DNA from: Bacillota bacterium
GTDB lineage: Bacteria > Bacillota > Sulfobacillia > Sulfobacillales > Sulfobacillaceae
DNA length: 50,666 nucleotides
Direction of reading: 5' to 3'
Assembly: GCA_021784595.1 (NCBI GenBank)
Contig: JAJYHT010000014.1
Coordinates: forward strand, 1-50,666
Shown: positions 17,924 to 18,121 of the stretch, piece after piece
Layout: each line of letters starts with the position of its first letter
Position numbering within the stretch: the stretch's first letter is position 1
Notes under the pieces: generated by a model
Seen by the model: only the letters and a program-made list of their open reading frames with translations
The model's database searches: none
What the model was told of the DNA's origin: nothing
Made by a program: the position numbers and the translations under genes

Positions 17924-17987
17924 GAGAATTCATCCGGTTCTCCTCTCTAGCCATTCGCTGTCCGGTTTTCGATCTCTGCATACCCAT

Positions 17988-18016
17988 TTGACATCCCATT
18001 AAATCCACCCTACGGT
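17988..18016 (+). promoter_or_regulatory. Sigma-A-type promoter of the selC-like tRNA
   Basis: A perfect -35 TTGACA at 17988-17993 is followed after 17 bases by TACGGT (18011-18016; three of six match TATAAT). The tRNA 5' end lies 10 bases after the -10, where transcription would begin, so the promoter appears dedicated to this RNA. Confidence 0.65.
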
Positions 18017-18025
18017 AGAAAAGAT

Positions 18026-18121
18026 GACGGTCAACGGGTACTGGAGTACCCCCTCGGCTGCAAACCGTGTGACACACGGCATGGCCGTGTGGCTGGGTTC
18101 GATTCCCAGGGGCCGTCTCCA
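18026..18121 (+). tRNA. selC-shaped tRNA with Cys anticodon GCA
   Basis: 96 nt including an encoded CCA (18119-18121). Acceptor 18026-18032 pairs with 18111-18117 (7 bp, one G-U); A33/G110 lie opposite as a mismatched eighth pair, so the branch is 8/5-like or 7/5 plus a bulge. The D arm has 6 bp (GGGTAC/GTACCC, 18036-18051) and a 4-nt loop TGGA, as in bacterial tRNA-Sec and unlike normal tRNAs. The anticodon loop CTGCAAA (18058-18064) gives GCA; its stem has one U-U mismatch. The variable arm is 8 bp with a 3-nt loop (18073-18091). The T arm is CTGGG-TTCGATT-CCCAG. The discriminator is U73 (18118). U73 plus GCA are cysteine identity elements, while G73 and UCA would be expected for Sec. It is therefore best read as a minor tRNA-Cys with tRNA-Sec architecture; whether it is charged by CysRS or used by SelB is unknown. 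Confidence 0.85.

Follow-up and report, generated by a model that had tools for sequence, protein, structure and literature searches.

The window, i.e. the whole analysed stretch of 50,666 nucleotides from a Bacillota bacterium, carries at 18026–18121 of the forward strand a tRNA-Cys gene shaped like tRNA-Sec, as determined with Rfam, ARAGORN, folding and homologues; all features given below lie on the same strand. The tRNA is 96 nt long, the encoded CCA included. The reported Rfam match was the tRNA-Sec model RF01852 with 51.7 bits (gathering score 47), not the general tRNA model, in agreement with the tRNA-Sec architecture proposed in the first-pass annotation, while ARAGORN called the same interval tRNA-Cys(gca). 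The minimum-energy fold was a cloverleaf of −44.5 kcal/mol, and 4 of 200 shuffled sequences folded equally well. The fold comprises a 6-bp D stem with a 4-nt UGGA loop (18036–18051), an 8-bp variable arm with a triloop (18073–18091) and, at 18093–18117, a 5-bp T arm without a bulge together with the 3' strand of the acceptor, in which 7 bp are formed and A8·G65 remains unpaired. The cloverleaf drawn by the first-pass annotation, with its 8/5-like branch, is thus the minimum-energy one. The anticodon stem contains a U·U mismatch in the window's genus. The anticodon GCA (18060–18062) and the discriminator U73 (18118), which had been named as cysteine determinants, were both found in the sequence and were invariant in the homologue alignment.

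The gene is referred to below as tRNA-ReC, the name for the selC*-type tRNA-Cys. A search model was built from ten family members and applied to 34 genomes of the Sulfobacillaceae family, where it separated tRNA-ReC (≥73 bits) from tRNA-Sec (≤58 bits). Fifteen of the 34 genomes carried tRNA-ReC, and the same-order genome G124 possesses it as well. The relative G020 and Sulfobacillus thermotolerans Kr1 (CP019454.1) have a tRNA-ReC identical in sequence to each other. In the ten homologues, 95% of the cells were paired and 5 pairs were changed on both sides; the pairing exceeded that of the shuffled control and of slid structures. All the cells of the D stem were paired, two of its pairs with both sides changed. 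These pair counts exclude a MAFFT alignment of 20 rows that also contained Nitrospirae members, in which the acceptor was misaligned. The compensatory changes indicate that the structure is not due to chance. In S. thermotolerans and its kin, which have a shorter D stem, A8-U65 is paired and the branch is a true 8/5 one. In the copy of genome G023 (L302:4644-4739) the anticodon loop (CTGCAA) is shortened and defective. Outside the family, a genome-wide pattern scan revealed at least about 35 more genomes with such a tRNA; among the matches listed, the hosts were Nitrospirae, Desulfobacterota, Peptococcaceae-like Firmicutes, Actinobacteria, Chloroflexota and a Planctomycete. The conservation search called for by the first-pass annotation was therefore positive both within the family and in other lineages.

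Upstream of the gene, the −35 element TTGACA (17988–17993) is perfect, as had been stated, but the putative −10 element TACGGT (18011–18016), located 17 nt further on, is weak with 3 of 6 matches, and a promoter scan returned no qualifying site. The nucleotidyltransferase and NIF3 genes, which had been mentioned as the context of the tRNA, were dropped as partners because these neighbours are conserved only in close relatives; the adjacency looks incidental. An M-box magnesium riboswitch (L077:5333-5505) and a guanidine-I riboswitch (L082:8566-8659) lie near the tRNA-ReC genes of two relatives and are probably unrelated to them.

The search for selA, selB, selD and a normal tRNA-Cys(GCA), suggested by the first-pass annotation, found all of them in the window's genome. 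A tRNA-Sec(UCA) is encoded on contig C7 of the same genome, so the earlier proposal of a reverted tRNA-Sec is unsupported. The selD gene has an in-frame TGA at the active-site position, and a formate-dehydrogenase-like molybdopterin oxidoreductase has a TGA at the catalytic site, in the motif SCNRT-U-HAPSV. The stem downstream of the fdhA UGA was not significantly stable (z −1.4), therefore no SECIS is claimed there. Each of the 30 selD genes found in the family (L256, L265-L293) contains one in-frame TGA, which makes SelD a selenoprotein throughout; the Sec/Cys status of SelD, considered as a separator of genomes with and without tRNA-ReC, was accordingly rejected. Sec-containing formate dehydrogenases have been reported in all Sulfobacillus genomes (PMC4378227) and a Sec peroxiredoxin in S. 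thermotolerans (PMC7409299). The selA gene of the window's genome (L254) has an in-frame TAA at C33:65213, a codon that reads CAA or CAG in several relatives; either selA carries a nonsense mutation or the assembly is wrong at this place. If the nonsense codon is real, the strain would be unable to make Sec, leaving the tRNA as the sole decoder of its UGA codons. Concerning tRNA-Sec itself, the gene of the window's genome (L001:1501-2500) is followed by an excisionase-like gene, and a second tRNA-Sec fragment, from the 3' end, is present in G023 (L091), therefore tRNA-Sec looks like an integration site. A second, divergent UCA tRNA-Sec was observed in G029 (L049:1501-1595), a genome listed with 6% contamination.

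The link between tRNA-ReC and SelB was determined in 35 ReC-bearing genomes outside the family (34 outside genomes and G124). A SelB match was obtained in all 35, in 34 of them above the curated cut-off, whereas the same search in control genomes gave matches above the cut-off in 2 of 14. The selB gene is directly downstream of the tRNA or close to it at several loci of Nitrospirae and Desulfobacterota; selB beside or near the tRNA was recorded in L112, L116, L150 and L101 (Nitrospirae) and in L145, L134, L161, L102, L097 and L109. In the Coriobacteriaceae MAG L132 (749-5831) the order is selD, selA, selB and a Sec-like tRNA with GCA and U73, which occupies the place usually held by selC. Within Sulfobacillaceae, a single SelB was found per genome, and selB was not next to tRNA-ReC. 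The family table of tRNA-ReC against SelB (14/14 versus 12/15 genomes, p = 0.22) was not significant and describes co-occurrence only; that against tRNA-Sec was not significant either (p = 0.08).

The rare class of selC* tRNA-Cys (Mukai 2017; Vargas-Rodriguez 2018) has been reviewed (PMC7609411, PMC11415595), and the pointer of the first-pass annotation to selC-like tRNA-Cys species matches it. The statement that the role is unknown was an understatement, as the class is reported to be charged by CysRS and delivered by SelB, with Sec UGA codons read as Cys, as published for D. nigrificans (PMC11415595). With a probability of roughly 75%, the gene at 18026–18121 is such a selC*-type tRNA-Cys, charged by CysRS and carried by SelB, that inserts Cys at SECIS-marked UGA codons; for this organism, we infer the charging, SelB binding, UGA decoding and regulatory direction. 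The reading is based on the sequence, the fold, the covariation, the co-occurrence with SelB, the adjacency to selB and LysR genes elsewhere and the shared LysR-type boxes described below. GCA and U73 would direct charging by CysRS, and the long acceptor/T branch would favour carriage by SelB rather than EF-Tu, as a result of which Cys would be inserted at SECIS-marked UGA codons. The presumed targets here are selD and the formate-dehydrogenase-like gene, with Cys in place of Sec. Under a shortage of Sec-tRNA, Cys versions of the selenoproteins, SelD among them, would be produced, and a Cys-SelD could allow selenophosphate synthesis to restart after selenium starvation. A Cys form of SelD is found in E. 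coli.

Three other explanations were weighed. GCA, U73 and the ARAGORN call would fit an ordinary second tRNA-Cys that is carried by EF-Tu and reads UGC/UGU codons, but the genome already has a normal tRNA-Cys, conservation across genera includes the Sec-like long variable arm, the 6-bp D stem and the 8/5-like branch, and SelB accompanies the gene in 35 of 35 outside genomes; this explanation is unlikely. A slightly lower probability was given to a tRNA that has a Cys anticodon but inserts Sec, with SerRS attaching serine and SelA performing the conversion. Its precedent is the tRNA-Sec(GCA) of Aeromonas salmonicida, reported to be SerRS-charged and SelA-converted (PMC11415595), and SerRS could grip the long variable arm and SelA read the 6-bp D stem. 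However, U73 is invariant where the tRNA-Sec of the family has G73, a UCA tRNA-Sec coexists, and the S. thermotolerans group, with its shorter D stem, has not retained the presumed SelA-binding part.

The least probable of the three, and a quite improbable one, is that the RNA is a relic, decaying or without a role in translation, or that it acts in regulation. The U·U mismatch of the anticodon stem, the A8·G65 mismatch, the weak −10, the operator lost in the window's genus and the defective G023 copy are in its favour, whereas conservation of the anticodon, the discriminator, CCA and, these defects aside, the stems with their compensatory changes speaks against it.

As for the expression of tRNA-ReC, a paired LysR-type box, ATRC-N7-GYAT, with the copies 31-32 nt apart, is located at about −58 and −27 of the tRNA. 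It was found upstream of the tRNA without mismatches in G029, G021, G026 and G028 and with one mismatch in G025 and G124; in G002 the box is displaced to −70/−38 and has two mismatches. Boxes with at most one mismatch occurred in Markov-shuffled upstream regions at a rate of 0.0003, and the upstream regions of tRNA-Sec had 5-8 mismatches to the box. The 1.79 Mb of fetched DNA contained 8 distinct paired sites with at most one mismatch, 6 of which are upstream of tRNA-ReC (L078, L080, L082, L083, L090, L306) and 2 beside selD (L288:2483-2528, L279:1408-1454), both in the interval that separates selD from a divergent LysR gene. Homologous LysR genes either diverge from selD or lie close to it in G001, G002, G005, G011, G012 and G021-G029, and similar boxes were observed in several of the selD/LysR intergenic regions. 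The best NCBIfam match of the selD-divergent LysRs was NF040786, the selenium-metabolism LysR; the three Sulfobacillus-family LysRs scanned scored 165-189 bits, below the cut-off of 250. The tRNA has a LysR above this cut-off (288-326 bits) upstream or next to it in L158, L103, L163, L115, L109, L148, L131 and L166; the lineages with an NF040786 LysR near the tRNA were Nitrospirae, Desulfobacterales and one Firmicute.

In the window itself, a degenerate LysR-type box is present at 17967–17981, where the half-site TGCAT alone is kept. In the genera of the window and of S. thermotolerans, which have the tRNA and lack the box, no such LysR was found in the selD loci examined. The absence of the operator and of the selD-linked regulator in the window's own genus counts against the proposed reading, as do the T stem without the published A51a bulge and the non-significant SelB table of the family. 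In the window's genome, a LysR gene located 8 kb away from selB was considered as the regulator and rejected: it scored 216 bits with CbbR and 209 bits with NF040786, both below the cut-off, and due to this ambiguity no regulator is claimed for the window's copy.

The expression of tRNA-ReC in sister genera and in other phyla is probably controlled by a LysR associated with selenium, and the boxes together with the NF040786 neighbours suggest a selenium-controlled switching between Sec and Cys. Regulation is a lead rather than a proof, because the motif was found post hoc and several genomes come from the same genus. The full scheme, in which a selenium-sensing LysR switches tRNA-ReC on or off and the choice of Sec or Cys at every Sec UGA codon, that of SelD included, follows the selenium supply, is tentative, with a chance somewhat below even. 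If true, it would represent a regulated codon of dual meaning that depends on how much of a trace element is supplied, with a backup tRNA serving in place of gene duplicates. Should a selenium-linked LysR tied to selD control the tRNA, the reason for a second, Cys-charged SelB carrier becomes testable. In the window's strain, the selA nonsense codon, if real, would remove the Sec side of the switch.

An archaeal parallel of such switching would be the control of Cys isoenzymes by HrsM in Methanococcus; HrsM is reported to repress Cys-containing isoenzymes in the presence of selenium, and in the parts of that source consulted (LysR_Se/HrsM, Lin 2015; PMC5322559) no tie to a tRNA gene was found. 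The selD-divergent LysRs of the sister genera resemble LysR_Se/HrsM in having NF040786 as their best match, and the LysRs near the tRNA in the outside loci are above its cut-off, whereas the three Sulfobacillus-family LysRs are below it. In comparison with tRNA-Sec (selC), the tRNA shares the RF01852 match, the 6-bp D stem, the long variable arm and the extended acceptor, and the tRNA-Sec of the window's genome has a purine mismatch, G8·A65, comparable to A8·G65. In contrast, GCA and U73 replace UCA and G73, and about 55 of 96 positions are identical to the genome's own tRNA-Sec. The published selC* tRNAs, with U73 and GCA or UCA as the anticodon, have an 8/4 branch with a bulged A51a, whereas a 5-bp T stem without the bulge and an acceptor of 7 bp plus mismatch or of 8 bp (8/5) were determined here; the published type of branch (8/4, bulged T stem) does occur in Desulfacinum L102. 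Further differences are that selB is not adjacent here and that a LysR-type box is present in sister genera. The tRNA-Sec-like body with its variable, D and acceptor arms, GCA, U73, the coexistence with tRNA-Sec and SelB, and hosts that include Firmicutes are common to the published selC*/tRNA-ReC and the gene described here.
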